Virus record (IMG/VR): IMGVR_UViG_3300042987_000733
Coordinates: 1-26,172 of that record
Length of the DNA: 26,172 bases
Reading direction: 5' to 3' (one strand)
DNA from: a virus
The first letter of the stretch is position 1. Each line of letters starts with the position of its first letter. The notes beneath the pieces are model-generated. The model had not been told where the DNA came from and searched no databases. It was given only the letters and a program-made list of their open reading frames with translations. A program made the translations under genes and the position numbers. Below, piece by piece: positions 9,235 through 22,165 of this stretch.

Positions 9235-11445
9235 TTACCTGTGAATGGCGACGTTGACGTAAGTGACGTCCTGAAGATTCCCGCCGGCGTCACGGATGTT
9301 GAACGAAAGGTTGCCGGTCGCGTAGGTGAGGTTGTTGGCGTAGTACAAGCTGCCACCGCTCGACGGGGTAATCGTGGCGCAGTAGTTTGCGTCGACCATT
9401 GCGTTAGCGAAGTTGACTTGATAGATGCCCACGCCGCCATCGGTGACGCTACTGACGTTCCCGTTCGCGCGACCCGAGCCGATCGTGCCAGCCGTGCCGT
9501 CGAAGTTGATCCAGGCCCGGCAACCGTAGGCCGTAGCAGCCGATCCGTATCCGCTGTTGAACTTGAAGTTGCCAGAGGAGTCGATGGCCGCGCGTGTAGC
9601 CGTGGCTGTGGCGTCGTAGATGTCGAACGAACCCGATGCGGCGTTTATGACGTACCAGGAGCGCACCGCATTGTATAGGTACAACCCAGCGTTGTAGCCC
9701 GAGCCGTTGAGGTTCTGCACGGCGGCGTAGACGTTGGTCGCCCCCGCCTCGCTGACCGTTAGCTTGGTGGCCGCCGTTGTGGTGCCAATCACGACATTGC
9801 CGGACGAGTCGATACGCATGCGCTCGGTATTGTTTGTCCAGAATGCCATTGGCGCGGCCAGCGCCTGCACGAGGTTGGCCGAGTTTGCGCCAGCCCAGGA
9901 AGACACAGTCGAACTGCCCAGCAGCAATCGGAACGCCGTGTTGCTCGAATTGTTTCCGAGGTTCAGGATCGAGAACGCCGAAGAACCAGCGTTCGCGTTT
10001 CGGATGTAGGATTGCTGCGCGGAGTTGGCGTCTGAGGCCACATCCAAGCGGCCCAGCGCGGTCGCCCCGATGCCGAGGTTACCCGACGAGTCGAGGCGCA
10101 TCTTTTCCGCGCCAATGAACCCCCATATAAAGCTGCCGCCGGTAGCGTCATTACGAAATGTGAAATCTGTACCAGCAGTAGCAGAGCCAAACTGGGATCC
10201 AAACCCTAACCACGCATTTAGCGTAGTAAGGTAGCCAAATGCCATCAGGCTTGTAGTAGCGTCACCACTAATCGCTAAGCGACGGTTGCCGGTTGAAGTA
10301 ATGCCAATGCCAAGATTACCAGAGGAATCGAACCGTGCTTTCTCAGTCCCCGCCCTCGTACGAAATACCTGAAGATCGGTGTCGAAGTAATACGTGGCTA
10401 CTGCTGAGCCGACGGTAATTTGCCCGTATGGGGATCCGCTATTGTGCTGGATATAAATACCGGCGTAGGAATTTGCTAGGTTGGTAGTAGTAATTACCCC
10501 AGCGGCTCCTGTTGTGCTATCACCATTGGATATGCGTGCCAACACATTCCCAGTTGAAGTATCTGCCACGTCCAGCTTATAAATTGGAGTACAACCTATC
10601 CCAAGACCCGTCGAGGTGAGGCGCATGCGCTCAACTAAAGCGGCAGAACGCCAGTACTGAGTGTCGAAGTTATAGTAAAAACTCGGTACCGCCGATCCAC
10701 CGCTCAACCCACCAAAAGCGTTCGTTCCGTTGTTGTTGTAACACTCCAAAACAAGATTGACGTTGGCGGATCCACCTTCCAAACGAACCTGAGAGAACCC
10801 CGTAGTTGTGTCAGAGTTTTTTATCCGGCCAGATACCCCACCTGCCACCGATGTACCCAGTACGTCCAACCGATACGAAGGAGTCGTACCAACGCCAAGA
10901 CCGGTGCTAGTAGTACGGGCTATCTCGCTACCCCCTACTGCAACGCCAACTTGATCTGCCGCTGGGAAGAAGATACCCGTATTCGTATCTCCGTCGTTCG
11001 TGATAGAGGGCGCAGCCGCGCTGCCATCGGGAAATAGCAGATAGTTAGCCGCAGGCACAATATCGGTGCCGTTACTCATCAACACCGCTTTCGCCCCGTT
11101 AGGGACAGATACCCCGGTCTGCCCGCTAACCTTCACGGTAACTGCATATCCGCCCGTCGTATTATTGTAGATAAAGTAGAGTTTTTTATTCGACGGGACA
11201 ATAAGATTCCGCGCGGCGGTGAGCGTTCCGGTACATTCAATAACCATATTCCGTGCAACCCCCGTCGCGCCATCGGGGATAGTGATTGTGGTATCTGCAC
11301 CGTCGGTAATGGCTTGTGTGGTGTAGCCAGAAATTGCCTGTTCAAGCAACGTACCGAGATTAGTATTGGTCGTATCGCCCCATGTTCCGGAACCCTCGCC
11401 GGTTGCAAGAAGCGTAAGCTTAAGATTCCCGCTATACGTAGCCAT
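9235..11445 (-). CDS. Long tail fibre protein (host recognition)
   Basis: A 736-residue fibre. The N-terminus (MATYSGNLKLTLLATGEGSG, then WGDTTNTNLGTLLEQAI) is a typical virion-attachment domain of aquatic phage fibres. The shaft holds about six repeats of the type E+MRLDSSGN(L/V)GIGTT, alternating with LDV and ISNGDSTTG motifs, the usual beta-structured fibre repeat. The C-terminus (about residues 640-736: CRAWINFDGTAGTIG, GVYQVNFANAM-like, VTYVNVAIHR) is a compact tip expected to bind the host surface. Codon use changes around 10130 (about residue 438), within one of the RLDSSGNLGIG repeats. The front is core-like and the rear G+C-rich, consistent with tip exchange by recombination in a repeat. 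AAGAGG lies upstream of the ATG. Confidence 0.9.
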   Translation of the reverse strand: MATYSGNLKLTLLATGEGSGTWGDTTNTNLGTLLEQAISGYTTQAITDGADTTITIPDGATGVARNMVIECTGTLTAARNLIVPSNKKLYFIYNNTTGGYAVTVKVSGQTGVSVPNGAKAVLMSNGTDIVPAANYLLFPDGSAAAPSITNDGDTNTGIFFPAADQVGVAVGGSEIARTTSTGLGVGTTPSYRLDVLGTSVAGGVSGRIKNSDTTTGFSQVRLEGGSANVNLVLECYNNNGTNAFGGLSGGSAVPSFYYNFDTQYWRSAALVERMRLTSTGLGIGCTPIYKLDVADTSTGNVLARISNGDSTTGAAGVITTTNLANSYAGIYIQHNSGSPYGQITVGSAVATYYFDTDLQVFRTRAGTEKARFDSSGNLGIGITSTGNRRLAISGDATTSLMAFGYLTTLNAWLGFGSQFGSATAGTDFTFRNDATGGSFIWGFIGAEKMRLDSSGNLGIGATALGRLDVASDANSAQQSYIRNANAGSSAFSILNLGNNSSNTAFRLLLGSSTVSSWAGANSANLVQALAAPMAFWTNNTERMRIDSSGNVVIGTTTAATKLTVSEAGATNVYAAVQNLNGSGYNAGLYLYNAVRSWYVINAASGSFDIYDATATATRAAIDSSGNFKFNSGYGSAATAYGCRAWINFDGTAGTIGSGRANGNVSSVTDGGVGIYQVNFANAMVDANYCATITPSSGGSLYYANNLTYATGNLSFNIRDAGGNLQDVTYVNVAIHR

Positions 11446-11458
11446 AACAGCCTCTTAT

Positions 11459-12922
11459 TTAGTGTAAAACGTCTGCCCAAACAGACGTTTGTGTGTCATT
11501 AATAGCCGCCCACGCAGGGGTTTGAGTATCTGCGATATCCTGCCAATTTGCAAACTGAGCGTCATTTACCAAACCCCATACGTTGACGGGCGTCACATAA
11601 CCTGTGGCGAAAACCCCTGTTATAGCTACAGCGGTTTCTAAAACTGTAATTACATCCCCCACTGCGCCTGTCGCGTATATCCCTGTAACGGGCACAAAAA
11701 GAATTCCAGCTACATCACTAGTGACCCCCGTAGCTGTTGCGGTACCAATAGTGCAACTAATACCAATATCTAAGCGGCACGCAATTCCATTCGCGGTCGC
11801 AGTACCCACGGCACAATTGATCGAGGTTGCGCCGGACACGTCGATCGACGCACCGATCCCGTTCGCCGTCGCCGTGCCTACGCTGGCGTTGACGGCTACA
11901 TCCAGCTTGGCAGCAGTGCCAGAGGCGGTCGCGGTCCCGGCGCTGGCGTTGACGGCTACATCAAGCTTGGCCGTCGTCCCGTTGGCCGTAGCCGTGCCGA
12001 CGCTGGCGTTGACGGCTACATCAAGCTTGGCCGTCGTCCCGTTGGCCGTAGCCGTGCCGACGCTGGCGTTGACCGCAATGTCGATTTTGGCCGAGGTGCC
12101 GCTCGCGGTTGCGGTGCCTACCGATGCGTTGACGGCTACGTCGAGCTTCGCGGCAGTGCCATTGGCGGTTGCGGTGCCGACGGTGCAGTCGATGGTGGTA
12201 GCACCTGCAACCACACTCGCGGTAAATATCCGCCGCGGCCTCGGCTGAAACAGTTGCCACGGGTTCTCGTGTAAGGCGCGTAACTGGCCAACGGTGGGGA
12301 CTGTATCTTCCCAAAAGACAACTAACGAGAGCCCCCAGGCAGTTGCAGCTTGCGTCCCACCTTCCGCACAACCGAAAACCGTCACGGTGGAATTCGACGC
12401 CAAGGTTCCCGTGACGTTGCCACTTGCGGAGGCGGTCGTCTCAACGCCATTAAACATCAACGACGCTGCTGATCCACTTACCCGTCCGGAAAATGTATTG
12501 AACCTATTCTGCATCCGCGCCGTGGGGCTGTTGTAACTCCACGTCTGGAGCGATCCTCCAGGCCAGAATACAGCCTGCACTGTGTCGCCGTTGATCTCTT
12601 GCATCGGCGTGCAAACGCCGTCGTGTCGAACTATCGACTGATTGAACGGCCCTTGGTTATCTCTGAAGCCCGCACAGAACCAAGCATAACTACTCTTGCC
12701 ATTGAAGTATCCGCGGGAATACTGGCGACCCGTGGCGGTTACGTTAATTCCAACGAGCCCATTGCCAAACGATCTCTTGGTGAATGTTGCCTCTGTAGAT
12801 GGCGGGACACCGTTCAATAATCCGCTAACGTGAGCCGCAGGGAGCCATATCTCAGCCGGCCTGGGAAATGCGGAATTAAGAAGCGCAATGCTCTGTGGCT
12901 GTTTCTTATTCTCGAAAATCAT
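11459..12922 (-). CDS. Repeat-bearing fibre/adhesin-like structural protein
   Basis: A 487-residue protein. I chose the ATG at 12922, which overlaps the previous stop (ATGA); a GTG at 12931 is the alternative. Residues about 20-225 have the strand pattern of a concanavalin/LamG-like domain (TGRQYSRGYFNGKSSYAW, VTVFGCAEGGTQ, WGLSLVVFWEDTVPTVGQLR), ending in a linker HENPWQLFQPRPRRIF. Residues about 240-400 are eight 20-residue repeats around VGTATANGTTAKLDV. The C-terminus carries three Trp/Gln motifs (FANWQDIADTQTPAWAAIND and TQTSVWADV) that recur in other phage surface proteins. A surface-exposed, possibly glycan-binding fibre is likely. The repeat number may vary between relatives. The domain names are inferred from pattern, not a search. 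Confidence 0.82.
   Translation of the reverse strand: MIFENKKQPQSIALLNSAFPRPAEIWLPAAHVSGLLNGVPPSTEATFTKRSFGNGLVGINVTATGRQYSRGYFNGKSSYAWFCAGFRDNQGPFNQSIVRHDGVCTPMQEINGDTVQAVFWPGGSLQTWSYNSPTARMQNRFNTFSGRVSGSAASLMFNGVETTASASGNVTGTLASNSTVTVFGCAEGGTQAATAWGLSLVVFWEDTVPTVGQLRALHENPWQLFQPRPRRIFTASVVAGATTIDCTVGTATANGTAAKLDVAVNASVGTATASGTSAKIDIAVNASVGTATANGTTAKLDVAVNASVGTATANGTTAKLDVAVNASAGTATASGTAAKLDVAVNASVGTATANGIGASIDVSGATSINCAVGTATANGIACRLDIGISCTIGTATATGVTSDVAGILFVPVTGIYATGAVGDVITVLETAVAITGVFATGYVTPVNVWGLVNDAQFANWQDIADTQTPAWAAINDTQTSVWADVLH
11715..12195 (-). repeat. Tandem 60-bp repeat array (about eight units)
   Basis: The array encodes eight 20-residue units of the type AVNASVGTATANGTTAKLDV. 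Units at 11941-12000 and 12001-12060 are identical over all 60 bases, and the identity between copies continues 13 bases further to 12073. Units at 11881-11940, 12061-12120 and 12121-12180 differ modestly, and the outermost ones are more diverged. The exact recent copy shows ongoing expansion by slippage or unequal crossing-over. The repeat keeps the reading frame (60 = 20 codons). Confidence 0.92.
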
Positions 12923-13743
12923 ACCGGCCACCCCAATTGCTTGCCGGTCGCGAGGACGTGCGGCAGTGCCCCATCACCGAGCGCATCGATCTTGATGCCG
13001 GGGCACTGCTGAAGCGTCGGCATGAGATCGGTCACCTGTTGCACGAGCGCGCCGGTCATCCAGAACCAGCGATTCGCAAAGCAAACGGGAAACGGCTGAT
13101 CGTCCTTGTGCGCTCGATCGCCAGTTGCCTTTACGACACCATTGCGCTGCACGCAGGACTCGAAGCCGACCAGCGTCACGTCGCGGAAGCCAAGCACCCA
13201 GGAAAGCGCAATCGCTCGCAGCCCGGTCGTCGTGCCGCCCCAGATACGACGCACGCCTCGCCATTCCGGATCGACCTCCTGGCGCCTATCGATACGCGGG
13301 TGCCACAGCATGACGGCATGCCCCCGAAAGCGCGGCCACGTGTCGGGGTGGCACGTCGTCGACAGGTAATACGTGACGCCGAGTCGAGGCTGGATAAGTC
13401 CGGCGTTGTGTGCCTGAGAATCTGCGCACACCGCCGAGTCTGGGATGCATCCGGCTTCCGCGAGGACGTTGTGAGCGCCCTTCACTGTCATGATATGTGC
13501 GCCGCCCGCACGGCGGCGAGCGATCTCTGGCAGGAAGTCGCGCAGGCTGGGAGACGAGCCGACGATGACCACAGGCTGACTGCGAACTGCTCCCGCTTGC
13601 TGGAGCACCGGGAACCCCGTGGCAACCGCCGCTCGCACGTAGTCGTACATGACCGAGCGATCGACGTTCGTATCCGCTTCCAGTTGAAGCGGCACCGCGT
13701 TGGCAGGCGGCGCGTTGATCGCATTGACGACCGCTATGCTCAT
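12919..13743 (-). CDS. DUF115/MAF-like Rossmann-fold protein, possible glycan-modification function
   Basis: A 274-residue protein. Residues 57-66 (PVVIVGSSPS) form a Rossmann-type nucleotide-binding loop, followed by HIMTVKGAHNVLAEAGCIPD and VCADSQ with an acidic residue at D108. This order matches the DUF115 family (MptE-like and motility-accessory-factor proteins), which includes flagellar glycosyltransferases and pterin pyrophosphokinases. Further motifs are WGGTTTGLRAIALSWVLGF and DVTLVGFES. Related phage genes are often named structural or norphogenetic without evidence. Its neighbours are fibre and surface proteins, so modification of a surface component is a fair guess. Its ATG overlaps the stop of the duplicated mini-frame, and its own stop overlaps the next start. 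Codon use is strongly G+C-rich. Confidence 0.78.
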   Translation of the reverse strand: MSIAVVNAINAPPANAVPLQLEADTNVDRSVMYDYVRAAVATGFPVLQQAGAVRSQPVVIVGSSPSLRDFLPEIARRRAGGAHIMTVKGAHNVLAEAGCIPDSAVCADSQAHNAGLIQPRLGVTYYLSTTCHPDTWPRFRGHAVMLWHPRIDRRQEVDPEWRGVRRIWGGTTTGLRAIALSWVLGFRDVTLVGFESCVQRNGVVKATGDRAHKDDQPFPVCFANRWFWMTGALVQQVTDLMPTLQQCPGIKIDALGDGALPHVLATGKQLGWPV

Positions 13744-13884
13744 GAATAGTAGGTCGCGTCGTGGGTGATGAGTACGGCCTCGGCGACCATCGGCACGTTG
13801 ATCGCATTGACGACCGCTATGCTCATGAATAGTAGGTCGCGTCGTGGGTGATGAGTACGGCCTCGGCGACCATCGGCACGTTGA
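13713..13884 (+). repeat. 83-bp perfect tandem duplication across a gene junction
   Basis: Bases 13713-13795 are repeated exactly at 13796-13878, followed by six further matching bases (CGTTGA, 13879-13884). The hexamer therefore flanks and separates the copies, as expected for duplication by slippage between 6-bp direct repeats. Each copy contains the last 18 codons of the gene at 13823-14455, its stop, and the first ten codons of the gene at 12919-13743. Confidence 0.97.
13740..13826 (-). CDS. 28-codon chimeric mini-frame created by the tandem duplication
   Basis: The right-hand copy of the 83-bp duplication gives the upstream gene its stop and an overlapping ATG (ATGA). Reading from that ATG gives ten codons of the DUF115-like gene (MSIAVVNAIN) and then, across the copy junction, the last 18 codons of the upstream gene (VPMVAEAVLITHDATYYS), ending at the TGA of the left copy. 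That TGA again overlaps the true ATG of the DUF115-like gene. Ribosomes could thus pass upstream gene, mini-frame and downstream gene by two ATGA couplings. The peptide itself is probably without function. Whether it is made is unknown. Confidence 0.55.
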   Translation of the reverse strand: MSIAVVNAINVPMVAEAVLITHDATYYS

Positions 13885-14455
13885 CCGAGTTTTTCGCTAA
13901 ATCAACCACCAGACGAACGGTTTCCTCGGAGGCGAGATCCACCGGGATGCTCCACTCTTCGGCTTGGTCGATCACTGGTGTACCCGTTGCATGGGATCGA
14001 GTAAGCGAATCCTGCACAGTAAGGATCGATGTCGCGACACCCTGAACGCGACCCCACTCGGAGTTTGCGACCGTCCCGCTCTCGTAGAAAAACACCAAAC
14101 CGTCGGAGGCAGAAATGCCGGTCCATCCGCTCGGCCCGTCAAGCGTATTGGCGTTAGCCGCAGCGTTCGACGTAAGCGATACTCGACTCGGCGCGGTACC
14201 ATGCAACGCCGTCGTCCACGGGTAGATCGGCGTCCAGAAATCCGCCGCACCGCCACTGCCTCGCCCGCCGCCCTCGAGCCGCAGTTCAGCCGCACCGCAG
14301 GACGTGGTTGTCGTTCGTCCAAGGCGCACCTTGAGCGTGCCCGCCCACTTCCCGGAGACGTTGATTTCCGGCCCCTTGGCAACGCTGTTGCTGTTGATGA
14401 GCTGACACGTCAGCGCAACGGATCGTGACTTCTGCGGGGTGAGTGAGCCAGCCAT
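13823..14455 (-). CDS. Phage structural protein of unknown function, beta-rich
   Basis: A 210-residue protein beginning MAGSLTPQKSRSVALTCQLI. It has a beta-rich body (GKWAGTLKVRLGRTTTTSCG, RVSLTSNAAANANTLDG, GLVFFYESGTVANSEWGRVQ) and a C-terminal strand region ending VAEAVLITHDATYYS. I do not recognise a named family. Its place among structural genes and its lack of catalytic motifs suggest a virion or surface component. It belongs to the G+C-rich stretch. Its 3' end lies in the right copy of the 83-bp duplication, so the protein itself is intact. It starts four bases after the previous stop. Confidence 0.78.
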   Translation of the reverse strand: MAGSLTPQKSRSVALTCQLINSNSVAKGPEINVSGKWAGTLKVRLGRTTTTSCGAAELRLEGGGRGSGGAADFWTPIYPWTTALHGTAPSRVSLTSNAAANANTLDGPSGWTGISASDGLVFFYESGTVANSEWGRVQGVATSILTVQDSLTRSHATGTPVIDQAEEWSIPVDLASEETVRLVVDLAKNSVNVPMVAEAVLITHDATYYS

Positions 14456-14458
14456 GTT

Positions 14459-14977
14459 CTACCCTCGGACCAGAGCGTCTTCAACGTCACGCTCCGACAG
14501 GTTGCCTTCAAAAGACATGGTCGCCGGGGATGCCAGGCTCCCTGTGCCTGTGGCAAGAATTTTTTCCCCGTAGGTCGACAGCCGAGCGCCAAACGACAGA
14601 ATGTGGCTTCGCATCGCGGCCACCGCACCAGTGCCTGCGAAAATCTTGGCGATTCCTTCCCGAACCTTGATCTTCGAGAAGTTGATCCCGTCGCCCATTG
14701 CCATATCTCGCCACGCACCCTGCTCCGACGTGGTTTGGCCCTTGTAGACCGTCCAGTCCCACTCGGAGGCCGATCCGCCAGCGCCCCCCGTGCCGACTTC
14801 GTTCTGGATTTCGATTCGCGGCACGTTTGTTCGGTACACGTAGAAATTCGGCGTGGCCTGGAGGTTGAGCGCGTCTCGGATCTGCCCGTACTGTCCGTTA
14901 TTGACGAGCGCAAGAAGCACCGGATCTGCCAGAATCGCCGCTTTGAGCGTCTGAAGTTGTGCGGTAGTGAGCGCCAT
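14459..14977 (-). CDS. Conserved phage virion-region protein
   Basis: A 172-residue protein. The ATG at 14977 is chosen because AAGGGGG lies just upstream and the sequence MALTTAQLQTLKAAILADPV is the usual N-terminus of this family. The frame stays open much further upstream but only as a shadow of the next gene. The middle has FYVYRTNVPRIEIQ and WRDMAMGDGINFSKIKV; the C-terminus reads LSTYGEKILATGTGSLASPA, then FEGNLSERDVEDAL. Related proteins with the TLKA.I.ADP start and ATGTG..ASPA motif occur in tail or head-completion regions of Burkholderia-type phages. The function is unknown. Composition is G+C-rich, as in the genes to its left. Confidence 0.82.
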   Translation of the reverse strand: MALTTAQLQTLKAAILADPVLLALVNNGQYGQIRDALNLQATPNFYVYRTNVPRIEIQNEVGTGGAGGSASEWDWTVYKGQTTSEQGAWRDMAMGDGINFSKIKVREGIAKIFAGTGAVAAMRSHILSFGARLSTYGEKILATGTGSLASPATMSFEGNLSERDVEDALVRG

Positions 14978-14987
14978 GGCAACCCCC

Positions 14988-15452
14988 TTAAGGTGTCGTA
15001 ATCGTGAAGATGTCAGTGCCCGCACCGCCGAAGTTGATCGTGAGCGAACCAGTCTGGATTGATCGAGACGACCCGAGATCGATATACCCCAGCGCGCGTT
15101 TACCCGCATCGGTCGAGTTGTAGACGATCCCATAGCGGCCATTAGTAAAACCGCTGGCGTCTTGGTTGATGACCACATCAGCGCCGCGAAAGGTCGGTAC
15201 GTTAGAAACGAGCGTCCATGAAACCGATGTGAGTGCAGGCCCGCCAGCCGAGTATGACGTACCTGTAGCGACTTCTTCTGTGGCAAAATTGGTCGTACCC
15301 CCGGTCCCCCAGCGAGGATCCCCCGTCGTTGCGGAAGGTGTCGTGGTGCCAATGGTCAGACCGATCTTGATTGTATCTGCACTCAGATCATGCTTTTTAG
15401 TACCCAAATCGAGCAACGCCTGTCGAAACCAAACAATATCGCCTGCCGCCAT
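14988..15452 (-). CDS. Beta-rich phage structural protein, paralogue of the next gene upstream
   Basis: A 154-residue protein beginning MAAGDIVWFRQALLDLGTKK, with DTIKIGLTIGTTTPSATTGD, TSYSAGGPALTSVSW, GRYGIVYNSTDAGKRALGYI and a C-terminal strand GSLTINFGGAGTDIFTITTP. The order and spacing (DTFKIALFTS / DTIKIGLTIG, TPGGNTL / SAGGPAL, ALIYNSTQSNKA / GIVYNSTDAGKR, FTITFP / LTINFG) match the 149-residue protein encoded at 15462-15911. The two are paralogues sharing one fold. Such proteins are common virion components of unknown role, perhaps decoration or spike. Codon use is G+C-rich toward the 3' end and core-like toward the 5' end, suggesting a recombination boundary inside the gene. Confidence 0.82.
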   Translation of the reverse strand: MAAGDIVWFRQALLDLGTKKHDLSADTIKIGLTIGTTTPSATTGDPRWGTGGTTNFATEEVATGTSYSAGGPALTSVSWTLVSNVPTFRGADVVINQDASGFTNGRYGIVYNSTDAGKRALGYIDLGSSRSIQTGSLTINFGGAGTDIFTITTP

Positions 15453-15461
15453 GACGTTCTC

Positions 15462-15911
15462 CTATACGATTCGAATAATTGCGTTAGTTGCGTCTGCCGT
15501 TGGAAATGTAATCGTGAATGTTCCACTAGATGTCGATTTATCACTTCCGAAATCAAGCACGACAGCCGCTTTATTGCTCTGAGTGGAGTTATAAATCAGC
15601 GCCCCTCGGGCAGTAATCGTCGAGCTACTCCACGACGTATCATTAAAGTCAAGAAACGCCGTCGTTCCAGAGGATGAGGGGGCGACCGTGGTCAAAGTAT
15701 TCCCCCCGGGCGTATACCCTGACCCGCTAGCTACCTCGTTAGTCGTCGCGTACGCGGTTGTAGTCGCACCCAATGTTGCCGCAGACGTAAACAGCGCAAT
15801 CTTAAAGGTGTCCGCAGTCGTACTCCCTCGGGAAACGGTCGTACCAAATGCATGAATCCCGTTGAGAAGTTCAACCTTGAACGACGTACACATTGCTTGG
15901 GAGATAGCCAT
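15462..15911 (-). CDS. Beta-rich phage structural protein (conserved aquatic phage family)
   Basis: A 149-residue protein beginning MAISQAMCTSFKVELLNGIH. It has DTFKIALFTSAATLGATT, GYTPGGNTL, SGTTAFLDFNDTSWS, ARGALIYNSTQSNKAAVVLD and FTITFPTADATNAIIRIV. This is a frequently met protein of aquatic tailed phages, usually in the connector-to-tail region, with no proven role. It lacks catalytic motifs and is Ser/Thr/Ala-rich with alternating strands. It directly follows the 94-residue gene with no spacer, and its paralogue lies immediately downstream. A virion surface or tail role is inferred from context. Confidence 0.85.
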   Translation of the reverse strand: MAISQAMCTSFKVELLNGIHAFGTTVSRGSTTADTFKIALFTSAATLGATTTAYATTNEVASGSGYTPGGNTLTTVAPSSSGTTAFLDFNDTSWSSSTITARGALIYNSTQSNKAAVVLDFGSDKSTSSGTFTITFPTADATNAIIRIV

Positions 15912-16196
15912 TTACAGACCCTCAATCGTACGGGCTAGATCAGCACGCCCCCGAACACGCAATTTTGCGCAGATTGTTGTTCGTTCAGAATCCTGCGCCT
16001 CTCGAATATAATGCACAAGAACCTGACGAATATGCTCACGAAATGCCCGCGCTTGCTCCGCGACAAGCGGGTGACTGCTATCCCCGATGCTGATAATCCT
16101 GTTCACCGCACGGTCAGCAAGCTCCTCCGGGTTCCACCCACGGTTGTCTACCGTGAGAACATTTACGCTACCACCCACTAATTCCCCATTGAACAT
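15912..16196 (-). CDS. Small conserved helical phage protein
   Basis: A 94-residue protein. I prefer the ATG at 16196 (AGGAG five bases upstream) over the adjacent GTG. After a short N-terminus (VNVLTVDNRGWNPEELADRA) it is helical and conserved: RIISIGDSSHPLVAEQARAF, then REHIRQVLVHYIREAQDSER and RGRADLARTIEGL. Proteins with a DRA..KI..(I/V)GD..HP....QA.AFR pattern are widespread in phages in the same neighbourhood. Their function is unknown. It stops immediately before the next gene, in a run of closely coupled structural genes. Confidence 0.82.
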   Translation of the reverse strand: MFNGELVGGSVNVLTVDNRGWNPEELADRAVNRIISIGDSSHPLVAEQARAFREHIRQVLVHYIREAQDSERTTICAKLRVRGRADLARTIEGL

Positions 16197-16204
16197 CACT
16201 ACTC

Positions 16205-16843
16205 CTATAGAACCGGCACGCGAACCTGTCCGCTACGATACGAATCACGACGATTTTTACCATCGCCTAACTGCTTAAGAAGCATAAGCGATTCTTGATA
16301 CTTGGCTTCGTAATTAGCAATGATATCAGGTTCTTGTTTTTGAAAGATCGCGGCCTCTCGCAACGCCCCGTAAAGCAATACGGTTTCAAAATTATCGCCA
16401 AGCCACGAAGTCCCCGCCGTTACAATGGACTGCGGATAATAGTAGTAATGCAATTCGACACTATACCCCTGATCCGGTGTCGGGCCGACAATCAAAGTGT
16501 TATAGTCAAATTGGGCGTAATGTTGGGGCACCCCTGTGTCCCCAGGATCCGGGTAAGCTTCACGGATGAAGTTAACATCCTTATCAAGCAGGAACGTCTG
16601 AGCTTCCGTCGTTGGGTCGATCACCGCCAGCGAAAATGTTGCCAACCAATCTGTGGGAAGACTAAGATATTTATTAGACGTAGTCAGCGTACCGATCTGA
16701 TTTTTACGAATCGCCGGAATCTGAACGCTATTATAAATCCGCTCTTCCGCAAGTTGCACAAACGTAGGAACTTGGGAGACAAACGTACTTTCCGTAGTCT
16801 CGGCGTACTCCTCGATTGCGGTGACCAACTGTGAATAGTTCAC
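16205..16843 (-). CDS. Phage adaptor/connector-type structural protein
   Basis: A 212-residue protein with a GTG start (AGAGG upstream) reading MNYSQLVTAIEEYAETTEST. The pattern FVQLAEERIYNSVQIPAIRK, YLSLPTDWLATFSLAV, DVNFIREAYPDPGDTGVPQH, LIVGPTPDQGYSVELHYYYY and a C-terminal helix LLYGALREAAIFQKQEPDII is typical of a phage adaptor family in head-tail junctions. The alternation of N-terminal helix, beta sandwich and C-terminal helix resembles the connector protein at 17584-18309, so it may form a second ring below the portal. That position is inferred. The family resemblance is strong. Confidence 0.85.
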   Translation of the reverse strand: MNYSQLVTAIEEYAETTESTFVSQVPTFVQLAEERIYNSVQIPAIRKNQIGTLTTSNKYLSLPTDWLATFSLAVIDPTTEAQTFLLDKDVNFIREAYPDPGDTGVPQHYAQFDYNTLIVGPTPDQGYSVELHYYYYPQSIVTAGTSWLGDNFETVLLYGALREAAIFQKQEPDIIANYEAKYQESLMLLKQLGDGKNRRDSYRSGQVRVPVL

Positions 16844-16852
16844 CCTACACCT

Positions 16853-17053
16853 CTATGCCATAGGCCCGCGAGATTTGATGCCTTTTGTAGCCGCACCGCC
16901 CCCGCGCATGGTAACCCCTTCAGTCTTGATGCCCGTCTGCGGATATCCGGTATCTACTTGATTGCCGGGTTTATTCACATTAGGCTTAGGTTGCGTATAT
17001 TTCCCAATGGGATTCGCGGTACCCATGTCAAAAAATTTGAATTCCTGAGCCAT
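16853..17053 (-). CDS. Small Gly/Lys-rich phage protein
   Basis: A 66-residue protein, MAQEFKFFDMGTANPIGKYT, then KPNVNKPGNQVDTGYPQTG, ending TMRGGGAATKGIKSRGPMA. It is basic, Pro/Gly-rich and probably disordered. The C-terminal RGGG..TKG..SRG motif resembles the RGKTKG endings of two other small proteins in this window (18824-19249 and 19249-19479). Its ATG overlaps the stop of the 47-residue gene (TAATG), so the two are coupled. It has no known function; it is one of a group of small basic proteins between the capsid and connector genes. Confidence 0.75.
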   Translation of the reverse strand: MAQEFKFFDMGTANPIGKYTQPKPNVNKPGNQVDTGYPQTGIKTEGVTMRGGGAATKGIKSRGPMA

Positions 17054-17196
17054 TATTTGCTCCTTTGGTTCATGGCCCGCGCCATGTTCCGTCCGTACTT
17101 CTTGGCTTCGGGCGACGTTACGCCCCCCTTTTTCATGCCATGCATACGCTTTTCGTGACTTTTGACTTCCTGCTTAGCCACTTTACGGACGTCCAT
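17053..17196 (-). CDS. 47-residue basic phage protein
   Basis: A short gene with ATG at 17196, AGGAG eight bases upstream, and TAA overlapping the next ATG. It reads MDVRKVAKQEVKSHEKRMHG, then MKKGGVTSPEAKKYGRNMAR, ending AMNQRSK. The motif VK.HE.RMH...KKGG.TS...KK.GRN.AR is conserved among small proteins of aquatic phages and supports a real gene despite its size. It is strongly basic and could bind nucleic acid or the packaged genome, but no role is known. Confidence 0.8.
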   Translation of the reverse strand: MDVRKVAKQEVKSHEKRMHGMKKGGVTSPEAKKYGRNMARAMNQRSK

Positions 17197-17206
17197 AGGT
17201 AATCTC

Positions 17207-17575
17207 CTAAAGTACAACTACGGTTACAGTCCCAACCGCGCCGGTCGCGACTAAAGTATTGGGAGTAAGCCCATCACTACTTCCCCCACCTACGGGGTTC
17301 CAGCCCCACTGTATTATACGACTACCTTCCCCCATCTGACCTGATACAACATAGCTAATATCCGGACGAGGGTTCCGTAGGGCTTGCGGATCGTCTACAG
17401 GATACAACCCAAGCTGCAATTGGGGGTGATCTGGCTCCCAGCAGGTGGGGCAGACCATGATATTCACGTTTTTCGTCTTAATGACGAGATTTTTAAGCTG
17501 CGTTAGCTTAAAGCGAAACCCACATCTATCGCATTCCGCGATTGCATATTTGCCTGACGCAAACCGATTCGGCAC
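17207..17575 (-). CDS. Zinc-ribbon phage structural-region protein
   Basis: A 122-residue protein starting at GTG (AGGTG upstream). The N-terminal 50 residues form a four-cysteine zinc ribbon: RFASGKYAIAECDRCGFRFK with C15 and C18, and VCPTCWEPDH with C42 and C45. The conserved LGLYPVDDPQALRNPRPD follows. The C-terminal 60 residues are Gly/Ser/Thr-rich and strand-forming (GWNPVGGGSSDG, TGAVGTVTVVVL). This ribbon-plus-RNPRPD protein is common in connector regions of aquatic phages, with unproven function. It lies between the connector and the small basic genes. It may be a virion component stabilised by zinc; that is inference. Confidence 0.85.
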   Translation of the reverse strand: MPNRFASGKYAIAECDRCGFRFKLTQLKNLVIKTKNVNIMVCPTCWEPDHPQLQLGLYPVDDPQALRNPRPDISYVVSGQMGEGSRIIQWGWNPVGGGSSDGLTPNTLVATGAVGTVTVVVL

Positions 17576-17583
17576 CGGGGCAC

Positions 17584-18309
17584 CTATACACCGATGAACA
17601 TCTGACGGGGTACAAACCGGACCGGGGCTTTCTCCCGGTCCTCGTCGGCAGCGAGTTGAAACTGCTGCTCATAGTCCATTTTGAGTTCCGCACGCCGGTT
17701 AAAATCCACCCCGGGGAGCTTTTGCGCCAGATAATACGCTAGCCCTGCAACCATGCACGGTAGGAACCGGAAGGGGATATCCGGCCCGTTTATGCCACTA
17801 CCCGCATCCAATATACGGCGAAGCCGCCAGTAGACAAACGTATAAGTCTGTGAGTTATCTGGTGTGGGCCAGACGTGGATTTGGGGGGATTGTACGACCG
17901 CTGCTGAATTCGTCGCCCCGGTTTTGCGCTGGAACCACACTTGGATCGGACGCCCCGTAGCATTCTTATTGGGGATCGCGGCGAAAGTACTTACTGAAAT
18001 GCGGGATATGTTGATATCGATTTGGCTAGTGCCCGTGCCAGTACGGATGACGTGATCTAACAAATCGATGGTGTCCACCGGCATGTCGTAATCCGCAGTG
18101 TTGTAGGTCAGCACCTGAGAGCCTTGCTCAATCGTCCAGAGGTTGATCCCTCTGTTCGCCCACTCGATGGTGAGCAGATTCAAGGAACGACGTGCCGTAC
18201 GGAAATCATAGCCAGAACGAAGCTCCGCACCACAGCGCTCGAATGCCTCCTCAATCAATGCATTCAGATCAAGGTTGAAATCCGTCGTTGCCGTCGTTTT
18301 CGCGACCAT
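17584..18309 (-). CDS. Head-tail connector, P22 gp4-like tail accessory factor
   Basis: A 241-residue protein that probably forms the ring joining portal to tail. After a helical N-terminus (LDLNALIEEAFERCGAELRS, then TARRSLNLLTIEWANRGINL) comes a beta region (VLTYNTADYDMPVDTIDLLD, HVWPTPDNSQTYTFVYWRLR) and a C-terminal helical part (PFRFLPCMVAGLAYYLAQKL, then DYEQQFQLAADEDREKAPVR). This helix-beta-helix plan and the VWPTPD..YT(F/L) motif are typical of P22 gp4 or T7 gp11-type tail accessory proteins. Full length for the family. Its ATG overlaps the previous stop (TAATG). Assignment to the broad family is confident; the P22 or T7 equivalence is inferred. Confidence 0.87.
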   Translation of the reverse strand: MVAKTTATTDFNLDLNALIEEAFERCGAELRSGYDFRTARRSLNLLTIEWANRGINLWTIEQGSQVLTYNTADYDMPVDTIDLLDHVIRTGTGTSQIDINISRISVSTFAAIPNKNATGRPIQVWFQRKTGATNSAAVVQSPQIHVWPTPDNSQTYTFVYWRLRRILDAGSGINGPDIPFRFLPCMVAGLAYYLAQKLPGVDFNRRAELKMDYEQQFQLAADEDREKAPVRFVPRQMFIGV

Positions 18310-18542
18310 TATCGGAACCTCGCAGTCTTCTTGGCGATGCTCTTGGGCTGGGCAACAAACTGTTTTCCAGCCCTCGTACCCGCTCGCTTAGCTCGGGTGG
18401 TGGCGGCATATTCAGCGGGACTCAGGGACTTGATAGCGGCCTCGGGCAGATACCGCTCCCCGGTCTTGCTGGAGGGTTTACCGGACTTGGTTGTCCAACT
18501 TTGCTGCGCCCATGCCTTCAGGCTTTGTTGGGGAGCCTTCAA
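18309..18542 (-). CDS. Small very basic phage protein (YLPEAAIKSLSPAEYAATTRAK type)
   Basis: A 77-residue protein starting at a TTG that overlaps the previous stop (TTGA). It begins MKAPQQSLKAWAQQSWTTKS, then has ERYLPEAAIKSLSPAEYAAT, and ends RAGKQFVAQPKSIAKKTARF. The YLP..AI..LS..EYA.T...KR.G...GKQ.V.QP..IA.K motif is conserved in small proteins of phages and some bacteria. It is strongly basic. Function unknown; nucleic-acid binding is plausible from charge alone. It is coupled to the connector gene by TAATG. Confidence 0.8.
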   Translation of the reverse strand: MKAPQQSLKAWAQQSWTTKSGKPSSKTGERYLPEAAIKSLSPAEYAATTRAKRAGTRAGKQFVAQPKSIAKKTARFR

Positions 18543-18823
18543 TCGCGGTAGCCCCCGCCCTTGGCTTTATACTGCTTCGCCAACAGTTGCGCCTTACGGG
18601 CGCTCCATTGTCCTGCTTTGGTACCCTGCACTGCCCGGGACTTAATGCTCCTAAACAGCGACTCGCGCATTCCGGGTTTGGTGTAATTGTCTGCTTGGTT
18701 GACGCGACTTACACCACCCTTACTAAACAGCGAGACGGGCTGTGGCCCATCTCGCTTCACAACCCTGCGAGGCTTTGGCACTTTACTTGGGCGTATTGCA
18801 CCCATTCCGCGCGAGGGTCGCAC
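18539..18823 (-). CDS. Small basic phage protein (NYTKPGMR...GQWSARKAQ type)
   Basis: A 94-residue protein beginning at a GTG directly after the upstream TAA. The first 45 residues are Arg/Pro/Lys-rich and probably disordered. The second half (QADNYTKPGMRESLFRSIKS, then GTKAGQWSARKAQLLAKQYK and GGGYRD) is a conserved small module found in phages and some bacterial genomes, of unknown function. It overlaps the next gene by TTGA. It is part of the run of small basic proteins, all of similar base composition. Confidence 0.8.
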   Translation of the reverse strand: MRPSRGMGAIRPSKVPKPRRVVKRDGPQPVSLFSKGGVSRVNQADNYTKPGMRESLFRSIKSRAVQGTKAGQWSARKAQLLAKQYKAKGGGYRD

Positions 18824-19249
18824 TTAGCACGCCCGCCCACCACGGTTCATCTTAACCATCGTGCCTTTGGTTTTGCCTCGACGCTCAATACCGCCGCCTC
18901 GGGCATACTTTCCGCCCTTCATCTCGGCCATTTCGTGCTTGATCATCGACTTCGGCGCGCCAGCTTTCTTCATGAAGCCGACTTCCTTTTTCATCATCGA
19001 CTTAGACTCTTTCACAGGACCACCTTCCTTTCTACCAATATGTTTAATAAGTGAAGCATACGGCATATCGATGCTACCATGCCGGGTATCTGCGCGGTTA
19101 ATTTTTGCCTTGGTGCTATAACCCTTAGCTTTGTCAGCGCGTACGAACTCCTCCCCCACCGACGGAGGAATTCCAACCTTCTTGGCGAAGGACGGGTTAT
19201 TTGCGACAGCCGCCATGAGCCGGTGCTGCGCTGGAGATTTTGACGGCAT
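18824..19249 (-). CDS. Lys-rich small phage protein with SKSPAQHRLMAAVANNP N-terminus
   Basis: A 141-residue protein with three parts. The N-terminus (MPSKSPAQHRLMAAVANNPS, then FAKKVGIPPSVGEEFVRADK) is a conserved phage module. The middle (KKEVGFMKKAGAPKSMIKHE, then MAEMKG) is Lys/Met-rich and helical. The C-terminus reads ARGGGIERRGKTKGTMVKMN, then RGGRAC. That RGKTKG ending also closes the protein encoded immediately upstream at 19249-19479. The protein is highly basic. No function is known. It is translated from an ATG overlapping the previous TAA (TAATG). Confidence 0.8.
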   Translation of the reverse strand: MPSKSPAQHRLMAAVANNPSFAKKVGIPPSVGEEFVRADKAKGYSTKAKINRADTRHGSIDMPYASLIKHIGRKEGGPVKESKSMMKKEVGFMKKAGAPKSMIKHEMAEMKGGKYARGGGIERRGKTKGTMVKMNRGGRAC

Positions 19250-19479
19250 TATACAAACCGCCCTTTCGTCTTACCACGTTGAGCAATGCCGTCTGCACGA
19301 CGGGAAGCGGAGCCTACGGTGCCACCTTTGGCTTTCTTTTCCGGGGGTTTAGACCCTCCCAGCCGCCCCTCCCCCATCGTAGTACTAGTTGTGGGGGCTT
19401 CCCCCTCCAGTTTACGAGCCTTTGCATCCTTAGCTTCTTGTAGTGCCTGCCGTTGTGCTTCAGTAAGGGCTTCAGCCAT
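19249..19479 (-). CDS. Small phage protein with RADGIAQRGKTKG C-terminus
   Basis: A 76-residue protein with an Ala/Glu/Lys-rich helical N-terminus (AEALTEAQRQALQEAKDAKA), a Gly/Pro/Lys-rich hinge and a conserved tail (KAKGGTVGSASRRADGIAQR, then GKTKGRFV). The tail motif is frequent among small phage proteins and resembles the end of the next protein, suggesting a shared ancestry or binding partner. AAAGGGG lies upstream of the ATG. The stop overlaps the next start. No function is known. Confidence 0.8.
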   Translation of the reverse strand: MAEALTEAQRQALQEAKDAKARKLEGEAPTTSTTMGEGRLGGSKPPEKKAKGGTVGSASRRADGIAQRGKTKGRFV

Positions 19480-19482
19480 TAG

Positions 19483-19734
19483 TTATCCCCTTTGTGCTTT
19501 CGCAAGATCATCAATCTTTGCTTCCAAATGCTTAAAACCAGCATCGAAGCGCTCAACAATCCGATCAACTTTGTCGTCGACCTCTTTACGAGTGATATGC
19601 TCACGAGCCACCTCTTCCCGAGTACGATTAAGTAAGATGCTAATCCTATTTAATTCGTCTATCTTACCCTTGAGCATAATACCGACCCCTGCAACAAAGA
19701 GAGACAGTATTGCGTTCCAAAGCATCATCTCCAT
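19483..19734 (-). CDS. Small membrane-anchored coiled-coil protein
   Basis: An 83-residue protein with one N-terminal hydrophobic segment (about residues 4-22, MLWNAILSLFVAGVGIML) followed by a continuous charged coiled coil (residues 25-80, with DELNRISILLNRTREEVARE and VDRIVERFDAGFKHLEAKID). The topology resembles an i-spanin or a membrane-tethered regulator. However, it lies far from the lysis genes and has no partner lipoprotein next to it, so I do not assign a lysis role. Function unknown. Confidence 0.75.
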   Translation of the reverse strand: MEMMLWNAILSLFVAGVGIMLKGKIDELNRISILLNRTREEVAREHITRKEVDDKVDRIVERFDAGFKHLEAKIDDLAKAQRG

Positions 19735-19754
19735 GGCTTAGTGCCTTCTTTCAG

Positions 19755-19790
19755 TGTATCTCTGATACATGCCTTATCTCGACGTATCAG
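19755..19790. other. Competing short inverted repeats after the nuclease gene
   Basis: TGTATC-TCT-GATACA (19755-19769) is a perfect 6-bp inverted repeat with a 3-base loop. An overlapping pair CTGATAC (19762-19768) and GTATCAG (19784-19790) can form a 7-bp stem with a 15-base loop. No T-tract follows on the minus strand, so this is not a standard terminator. Confidence 0.35.
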
Positions 19791-20154
19791 TATTAGCATA
19801 TAAATACTGCACCGCAAAATCTAGTAGCACAGGGTCATCGCGGAAATGCCCAAGGCCACGATTGCAATGGTGGCATAACATGCCCCTAATCTTGCCGGTA
19901 CCATGGTCGTGATCCACAACTAATTTACCCTCCGTACTACATATAGCACACTGTTTAGTAGTGGCCTTGAGATTAATTAGCTCCGCATCCGATATTACAG
20001 CCCTAAACCTACCTCGATTGATAATGCTTCTATATAGCGAGCGGCAGGTACGGCACCAACTATCAAGTCCGTTTAGTTTTTTGCTATGTGGAGGGAAATA
20101 CTCCAGGTTGGCTGGCTTTTCCTCTTTGCACTTTGTGCATCTCAGCAATTCCAA
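19774..20154 (-). CDS. Endonuclease VII-type (HNH, zinc) nuclease
   Basis: A 126-residue recombination endonuclease VII family protein. An N-terminal zinc ribbon (C6, C9, C34, C37) precedes the catalytic module: C69 and C72, VVDHDHGTGKIRGMLCHHCN with the D81-H82-D83-H84 motif, C94 and C97, and a final GLGHFRDDP. T4 endonuclease VII resolves DNA junctions, but small stand-alone copies like this are often mobile or homing nucleases of phages. The start appears to be a TTG inside the previous gene's end (AAGGA upstream, 13-base overlap). If it is a homing nuclease, its target may be the neighbouring locus in related phages. Confidence 0.9.
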   Translation of the reverse strand: MELLRCTKCKEEKPANLEYFPPHSKKLNGLDSWCRTCRSLYRSIINRGRFRAVISDAELINLKATTKQCAICSTEGKLVVDHDHGTGKIRGMLCHHCNRGLGHFRDDPVLLDFAVQYLYANTDTSR

Positions 20155-20405
20155 GCTTTCCTTGCTAAGCGTAAACGACTGTTGGGATCTTTAGCCGCCT
20201 TGGGGAACATCTCCATCTGCCCAGCACTTCTCGCGCAAAAGGACTTTCTCCGCTTTGCGTCTTTCTCAGTACGGGGGTTTGGTGCGGGCGGCTTTAGCCC
20301 CGGTTTCCCGGGGTTCGCACGGTTATATGAAGCTCTCCCCTTCGCGTTCAAACCACCCGCAGGGTTTTTACCTTCTTTGCGCTGCCATGCAGGGGACTTA
20401 GCCAT
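20142..20405 (-). CDS. DUF6321 small basic phage protein
   Basis: An 87-residue protein. I chose the ATG at 20405 with AAAGG six bases upstream; it overlaps the glycosyltransferase gene by eight bases. It reads MAKSPAWQRKEGKNPAGGLN, then AKGRASYNRANPGKPGLKPP, then KDAKRRKSFCARSAGQME and ends RLRLARKAWNC. The KSPAWQR.EGKNP.GGLN.KGRASYN start, the RRKSFCAR core and the KWNC-like end are the signature I associate with DUF6321, a very common phage protein of unknown function. It is strongly basic. Confidence 0.88.
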   Translation of the reverse strand: MAKSPAWQRKEGKNPAGGLNAKGRASYNRANPGKPGLKPPAPNPRTEKDAKRRKSFCARSAGQMEMFPKAAKDPNSRLRLARKAWNC

Positions 20406-21144
20406 ATGCAACCTTTAGCTCAGGCTCTTGCGCAGATTGGAGTCGAGGATATAGCACGTCGTTACCAAAGTCGCTCTCGTACTCATGGATGCCCATGTGG
20501 CCTAATTTAATCGTTGGGTCGATCCAGCAGGTATACCCAGCATCATTCGCACGTTGGCAGAACAAAAAGTCCTCGCCAATGTAACCCTCCGGGGTAACAA
20601 GAAAATCAAAAAAGCTATACAGCATATTGTCCGAATTGACATCCTTGTGGTACCACTCAGGATGCAACTTCGCCAAAGTCTCAAACACCTGCCGCTGGAT
20701 CATCATAAACCCGGTCGCTACCCGACGTGCCTTAACAAGACCCATGGGATCCATGATGATGTTGTCGTTTTCGTCATGGTCAAGCGTAAGTATGTAGACC
20801 TTGCCCGCCTTACGCGCTTCATAAGCCCCAGCGACGATAGGTTTTTCTTGGCCGAACGCTAGCAACCGGATAATTGCTTCCGGTTGGAAAGACATATCTG
20901 CGTCGATAAAGAGCAAGTGATCGCAGTCAGACTTCATGAATTCGTCAGCGATCATATTTCGCGCCCGGGTAACCACTGAGCAGCCGCAAATGCTACTAAC
21001 TTGAATCGTAATACCGTATTCCAGTGCCATTTGAGCAAACCGCATCAGCGAGATTGCCATCTTCACACCGACTTTATGGTCGTACGCAGGTAGCCCGATC
21101 ATCAACTTTTTACCCGCGAGATCGTAACCTTTTTGATTTTGCAC
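20398..21144 (-). CDS. GT-A fold glycosyltransferase
   Basis: A 248-residue enzyme-like protein with the order expected for a GT-A glycosyltransferase: nucleotide-sugar entry strand LMIGLPAYDHKVG, SICGCSVVTRARNMIADEF, the metal-binding DxD motif at residues 81-83 (LLFIDADMSFQPEAI), an acceptor loop VATGFMMIQRQVFETL, and the acidic GYIGEDFLFCQRANDAGY region with G190-E191-D192 as candidate catalytic residues, followed by LGHMGIHEY. Start is GTG. Similar genes lie in structural modules of aquatic phages. Possible targets are capsid or fibre proteins, phage DNA bases or host surface sugars; the sequence does not tell which. It lacks a membrane segment, so it should act in the cytoplasm. Confidence 0.85.
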   Translation of the reverse strand: MQNQKGYDLAGKKLMIGLPAYDHKVGVKMAISLMRFAQMALEYGITIQVSSICGCSVVTRARNMIADEFMKSDCDHLLFIDADMSFQPEAIIRLLAFGQEKPIVAGAYEARKAGKVYILTLDHDENDNIIMDPMGLVKARRVATGFMMIQRQVFETLAKLHPEWYHKDVNSDNMLYSFFDFLVTPEGYIGEDFLFCQRANDAGYTCWIDPTIKLGHMGIHEYESDFGNDVLYPRLQSAQEPELKVAYG

Positions 21145-21147
21145 AAA

Positions 21148-21453
21148 TCACCCGTAGAAGATAGTCGCGGAGCCTAAACTAGTAACCACCCCATACGGTG
21201 ACGTACGCACCAAGACTCCTTCACCGGGAAGCAGCAGATAAGTCGGCTGCGTTGCGGACGCTACCGTATTGATAGTCATGAGTATTGTCCCCGACACGCC
21301 ACCATCCCTGATTACGAGGGATCCCGCGACACCTGTCGGAACAATATAGATTGACTTGATACGCGTACGCTTGATAGCGTTAGTGGCTTGGTCCGTAAAA
21401 TCACCACTCGCAATAAGCGGTACACTCGCTAGTACGTCAGTTTGCATAGCCAT
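21148..21453 (-). CDS. Small head-decoration-like protein
   Basis: A 101-residue protein. I chose the ATG at 21453, seven bases after a GGAG; the longer open frame upstream covers the UUCG hairpin and is not credible as coding. It reads MAMQTDVLASVPLIASGDF, then IKSIYIVPTGVAGSLVIRDG, TYLLLPGEGVLVRTSPYGVV and SLGSATIFYG. It is a compact beta-sandwich-like protein common in head modules of aquatic phages. No function is proven; decoration of the capsid is inferred from position two genes after the major capsid protein. The next gene starts four bases beyond its stop. Confidence 0.8.
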   Translation of the reverse strand: MAMQTDVLASVPLIASGDFTDQATNAIKRTRIKSIYIVPTGVAGSLVIRDGGVSGTILMTINTVASATQPTYLLLPGEGVLVRTSPYGVVTSLGSATIFYG

Positions 21454-21470
21454 AGCTGTTCTCCAAAAAA

Positions 21471-21492
21471 GGTATAGGGGGCCGAAGCCCCC
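21471..21492 (-). terminator. UUCG-loop hairpin with T6 tract (attenuator-like)
   Basis: On the minus strand GGGGGC-TTCG-GCCCCC forms a six-pair all-G:C stem closed by the exceptionally stable C(UUCG)G tetraloop. Six bases later a TTTTTT run follows, just before the GGAG of the next gene. The U-run is displaced from the stem, so it may be a weak terminator, an mRNA-end stabiliser or a processing site between two decoration-like genes. Confidence 0.6.
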
Positions 21493-21504
21493 GAGAACCA
21501 ACTA

Positions 21505-22044
21505 TTAGCTGTCCGCAAACGGCGTGGCAACGACCCCCGAACCGAGAGCGACACCCTCAACCACATACTTCAACGCGTCGATCGCAACAATACGAACCCA
21601 AGAGCCTGCTACGCCCCCTGTCGTAGTGCCATTGAAATTGATGAAGTCATTCGTCGCACCCGCCGTATAAGCGACCAATGCGTTTGCAGTATCCGTATCG
21701 ACTCCAAAAATCGTACCGATAAACTTATCCGTGCCGTCCGTACCAATCTTGAGAGACGACGTAGCAATCGTCGTCGGCACCCAAATGGTATATACGACAC
21801 CTTCGTTATTCGCAGTGTTGGGGTCGGCTCCCGGTCCCGCAGCCGCCGAGTTAGCCGTGGCGACAATTGTCGGCAGGGTCAGAGTGACGTTCGCGGCCAG
21901 AGTACCCCCAACCGTGATGATACGCCCACCGTGGGCCGCAGGGGATAGCGTCGTGCTGGCCGAAATAGGAACAATCGTGGATGCCCCTTGCTGATAAATA
22001 CCACCAAGTGAGCGAATAGGTCCGTCAAACGTGCTGATAGCCAT
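21505..22044 (-). CDS. Head-decoration-like phage protein
   Basis: A 179-residue protein beginning MAISTFDGPIRSLGGIYQQG. It is rich in Thr, Ala, Gly and Val with alternating strands: TLSPAAHGGRIITVGGTLAA, NVTLTLPTIVATANSAAAG, GVVYTIWVPTTIATSSLKIG and GVAGSWVRIVAIDALKYVVE. The opening and the LTLP motif recur in capsid-associated proteins of aquatic phages. It is the first gene after the capsid terminator and has its own likely promoter and an 85-base leader. AAAGG precedes the ATG. A decoration or capsid-stabilising role is inferred from place and composition. Confidence 0.8.
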   Translation of the reverse strand: MAISTFDGPIRSLGGIYQQGASTIVPISASTTLSPAAHGGRIITVGGTLAANVTLTLPTIVATANSAAAGPGADPNTANNEGVVYTIWVPTTIATSSLKIGTDGTDKFIGTIFGVDTDTANALVAYTAGATNDFINFNGTTTGGVAGSWVRIVAIDALKYVVEGVALGSGVVATPFADS

Positions 22045-22072
22045 TTTCTACCTTTCGTGTAGTAGCACTTCC

Positions 22073-22111
22073 CATATCGTCCCTACTAGGTCTGCTGGGG
22101 CAGTCGATATG
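22073..22111 (-). promoter_or_regulatory. Inverted repeat in the 5' leader
   Basis: CATATCG (22073-22079) and CGATATG (22105-22111) are perfect 7-base inverted repeats about 25 bases apart, enclosing a smaller CTGC-TGGG-GCAG hairpin. They lie between the predicted promoter and the ATG at 22044. The element could be a leader stem-loop or an operator; nothing more can be said from sequence. Confidence 0.35.
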
Positions 22112-22136
22112 AGTAAAAACCCCCAGATATAGGCAC

Positions 22137-22165
22137 CTTATAGCACGAAGCAAAAACAGTGGCAA
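22137..22165 (-). promoter_or_regulatory. Sigma70-like promoter
   Basis: On the minus strand TTGCCA (22160-22165) and TATAAG (22137-22142) are separated by exactly 17 bases, each matching five of six consensus bases. It points at the gene ending at 21505, with a leader of about 85 bases. The -35 box lies in the T-rich tail of the terminator just upstream, so expression would be reset right after the capsid gene. Confidence 0.6.

Follow-up and report, generated by a model that had tools for sequence, protein, structure and literature searches.

What does an exact tandem duplication do when it falls on the junction of two overlapping genes, and how did it arise? These questions are raised by the record of an uncultured bacterial virus, of which 26,172 bases (the whole stretch analysed, hereafter the window) carry on the minus strand, at 13713-13884, an exact tandem repeat with a period of 83 bases (2 x 83 + 6), which could be a real mutation, an error of assembly or a feature with a function of its own.

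The repeat and the genes that it joins

The perfect 83-bp tandem duplication had been noticed by reading the sequence, and two programs bore it out. The repeat search gave direct copies at 13708-13790 and 13791-13873 that are 99% alike, with a single mismatch (13712/13795), and TRF reported 2.1 copies of period 83 at 13708-13884. The hexamer CGTTGA, which had been placed at each copy end, indeed occurs at 13713, 13796 and 13879, inside the exact stretch. A run of 83 exact repeated bases is not due to chance, and the copies are identical and arranged head to tail, as in microhomology-bounded tandem duplications. The observation as a whole was confirmed, and all the numbers in the original prediction were right. 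The features of the junction are:

13713-13884, minus strand: exact tandem repeat, two copies plus 6 bases; it reaches 13708 if one mismatch is allowed
14455-13823, minus strand: P1, the upstream gene (210 aa), with an SD-like GAGG; it stops in the first-copy ATGA
13826-13740, minus strand: 28-codon chimera, coupled through ATGA to either neighbour, without an SD motif
13743-12919, minus strand: P2, the downstream gene (274 aa), without an SD motif; it opens in the second-copy ATGA

P2 carries an MptE-like domain (PF01973, E 2.5e-14), and a family search with P1 gave no match. Reading both frames on the minus strand showed that the duplication spans the ATGA overlap of the two genes, as had been proposed, and translation verified the chimeric frame with its start and stop in ATGA: it encodes MSIAVVNAIN followed by VPMVAEAVLITHDATYYS and the stop, that is, ten codons of the downstream gene and 18 of the upstream gene. 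The ATGA overlaps are located at 13823-13826 (P1/chimera) and 13740-13743 (chimera/P2), so that the arrangement has the overlap of -4 or -1 nt that characterizes termination-reinitiation gene pairs. It had also been pointed out that both genes are left full-length, which is true but uninformative, as no tandem duplication spanning the boundary of two genes would truncate either of them; the geometry of such a duplication accounts for it and no further explanation is needed.

Origin and age of the duplication

The hexamer had been taken as the footprint of slippage between short direct repeats. This is supported, but the hexamer alone understates it: CGRTCAACGYGCCG is common to both unit ends, in 12 of 14 bases, and short homology is thus present once at each end of the unit, another property of microhomology-bounded tandem duplications. 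The sites concerned are:

13874-13887, minus strand: first end homology, CGGTCAACGTGCCG
13791-13804, minus strand: novel joint, CGATCAACGTGCCG; left part of P2 type, right part of P1 type
13708-13721, minus strand: last end homology, CGATCAACGCGCCG

A 12/14 match like that between the outer end sites has a background of 4e-5 among 14-mer pairs 83 apart in this window, where an exact shared run of at least 6 has a background frequency of 1e-3. As the left part of the joint is of P2 type and the right part of P1 type, the switch is placed in or beside the shared TCAACG. The end homology fits strand slippage or short-homology recombination, two routes that the sequence cannot separate. We propose that one replication slip, or an equivalent recombination, between imperfect 14-base homologies 83 bases apart would have duplicated the P1/P2 junction, and we infer that the direction was that of a duplication rather than of an older array. 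The locus resembles slippage between short direct repeats in that the unit is bounded by short homology, once per copy end, and in that the copies are identical, the sole difference from slippage duplications generally being that an ATGA gene overlap happens to lie within this one, in phase. Literature searches on slippage-born tandem duplications in phages turned up nothing pertinent. Hairpin-driven slippage was also considered and rejected, as shuffled sequences fold as well as the DNA of the unit (z 0.75). In 0.81 Mb of related loci, a scan for tandem duplications with periods of 40-500 and at least 95% identity found none except in the second contig described below, and widening the periods to 20-500 at the same identity added three outside the lineage of the window (periods 20, 27, and 36). 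Such duplications are therefore uncommon in standing sequence, yet of a well-known kind.

The original prediction held the event to be either very recent or an assembly artefact, and proposed looking at the same junction in relatives. One contig allows this, IMGVR_UViG_3300047550_002536, which aligns to window positions 11428-22160 with 99.925% identity over 10,733 bp. It differs from the window by eight substitutions, with no gap and none of them in the repeat, and it holds the exact 83-base unit twice at the corresponding place, its copies being also identical and not diverged. If the second copy were absent from the real virus, its source would have to be the assembly, and in fact these are metagenome contigs in which an 83-bp repeat lies within the size range where k-mer assemblers form loops. 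However, two assemblies with different consensus bases share the same novel joint, which makes an artefact unlikely even if both contigs possibly come from one sample. Furthermore, assemblers usually collapse repeats, and the joint CGATCAACGTGCCG is not derivable from a single-copy genome without chimeric reads; we consider the artefact highly improbable. The true number of copies may nevertheless exceed two, since assembly from short reads does not settle how often an 83-bp unit is repeated in tandem.

As for the other half of that claim, a very recent event is possible but not established, and zero differences in 83 bases bounds the divergence of the copies only at about 3.6% (rule of three). 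The duplication arose before the strain of the window and that of the second contig (0.075% apart) diverged, because the same identical copies are present in both. Seven of the eight differences between the contigs sit in two short clusters (18878-18926 and 19741-19783), as from recombination or local variation.

Phase of the unit and translation of P2

The only informative point about the consequence of the duplication is that the chimera is in phase. The unit length, 83, is -1 mod 3, and the chance of a correct phase is 1 in 3. Given the -1 shift between the overlapping genes, the new frame made by a unit of -1 mod 3 ends precisely in the second ATGA and can act as a relay; the remaining phases give an in-frame fusion of P2 to an extension or an out-of-frame reading past the P2 start.

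An SD match (at least 4 bases) is found at 28 of the 33 starts in the window, and the starts of P2 and of the chimera have none. A missing SD motif is only weakly predictive, and P2 may have another mode of translation. If the chimera were not there, about 79-80 nt would separate the P1 stop from the P2 start. In E. coli and H. volcanii reinitiation is reported to be almost lost when 22-38 nt intervene, and the final 15 nt of the preceding gene are enough for coupling (PMC10666635); the weight of SD motifs at such overlaps differs by gene pair (PMC6728339). Because the P2 start lacks an SD motif and a gap of 80 nt would be too long for reinitiation, the mini-frame probably keeps P2 translated. 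Ribosomes ending P1 would reinitiate at the first ATGA, read the 28-codon frame, terminate at the second ATGA and start again on P2, which would thus still be translated, probably with a lower output because of the one extra reinitiation step. Judging from the arrangement of the frames and from known coupled genes, P2 translation most likely runs through the 28-codon relay, and the 28-aa peptide itself is most likely functionless. The reading that we favour with considerable confidence is that a single slip duplicated the P1/P2 junction and that the chimera would relay ribosomes and keep P2 translated. As in termination-reinitiation ATGA pairs (PMC6728339; PMC10666635), the overlap is of -4, the distance is short and the genes run in one direction. 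In contrast to these pairs, two such overlaps follow one another here, separated by a 28-codon frame, and there is no SD motif, though most overlapping pairs in many groups have one.

The duplicated junction could instead be a selected feature, either reducing P2 dosage in relation to that of P1 or giving the 28-aa peptide a role of its own, in line with the phase of the chimera, with the retention of the duplication in two strains and with relatives that have no other duplication of period over 40. However, with only 0.07% between them the two strains represent little more than a single event and provide no test of selection, the peptide consists of mere pieces of the neighbouring proteins and the RNA fold over the junction is no better than that of shuffles (z -0.07), so we regard this explanation as very unlikely. 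The most remote of the alternatives is a variable-number tandem repeat acting as a switch or a tuning device for P2. A tandem array across a translation junction, whose relay stays in phase with each added unit, would suit it, but only 2.1 copies are present in both contigs, and no difference in copy number was seen between these isolates (two copies in each, n=2 genomes).

The slip and its putative relay amount to an ordinary mutation whose effect on translation can be tested, with no evidence of a selected function. It would illustrate, on a small scale and in nature, how a duplication can insert a relay step into translational coupling, and if coupling is as local as reported, only in-phase junction duplications would survive where the downstream gene is needed. 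It is conceivable, although unlikely, that duplicated ATGA junctions offer a ready-made origin for small new coupled cistrons if the unit is -1 mod 3; if so, a new frame would be born with start, stop and translation whenever the unit has that length.

Genomic setting of the P1-P2 pair

Head, tail, fibre and endolysin genes are present in the window. For the major capsid protein, identity is 67% with the counterpart in Planktothrix phage Pag-Yong1 and 64% with the one in Pelagibacter phage HTVC023P. Among 44 related virus records, many of them fragments, P1 and P2 turned up in the second contig alone; as neither gene is in the other 43 records, the single-copy junction was not seen. Known phage records gave no DNA match and no protein match for P1 or P2, and in viral contigs P1, P2 and a 297-aa neighbour each matched only the second contig. 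No relative of P2 was found in bacterial and archaeal genomes, with a search that reaches close relatives only. In the related viruses a phrog_644 gene is followed by tail-fibre genes, without P1 or P2. Their absence from the loci and records of relatives suggests that P1 and P2 probably form an accessory cassette in this lineage, with the repeat inside it. The idea that the repeat is the insertion site of a gene cassette was rejected, as it lies inside the cassette and not at its edge.

Other features of the region were also recorded. P2 (12919-13743) is a case of a PF01973 (MptE-like) protein gene in the tail-fibre region of a phage. Two adjoining phrog_644 paralogues, about 31% alike, lie at 14988-15911, and several relatives likewise have two side by side. 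Finally, a 490-aa gene (12931-11459), the C-terminal part of which resembles proteins of the tail-fibre region of the relatives, contains at 11857-12182 a 60-bp (20-codon) tandem array of about 5.4 diverged copies.
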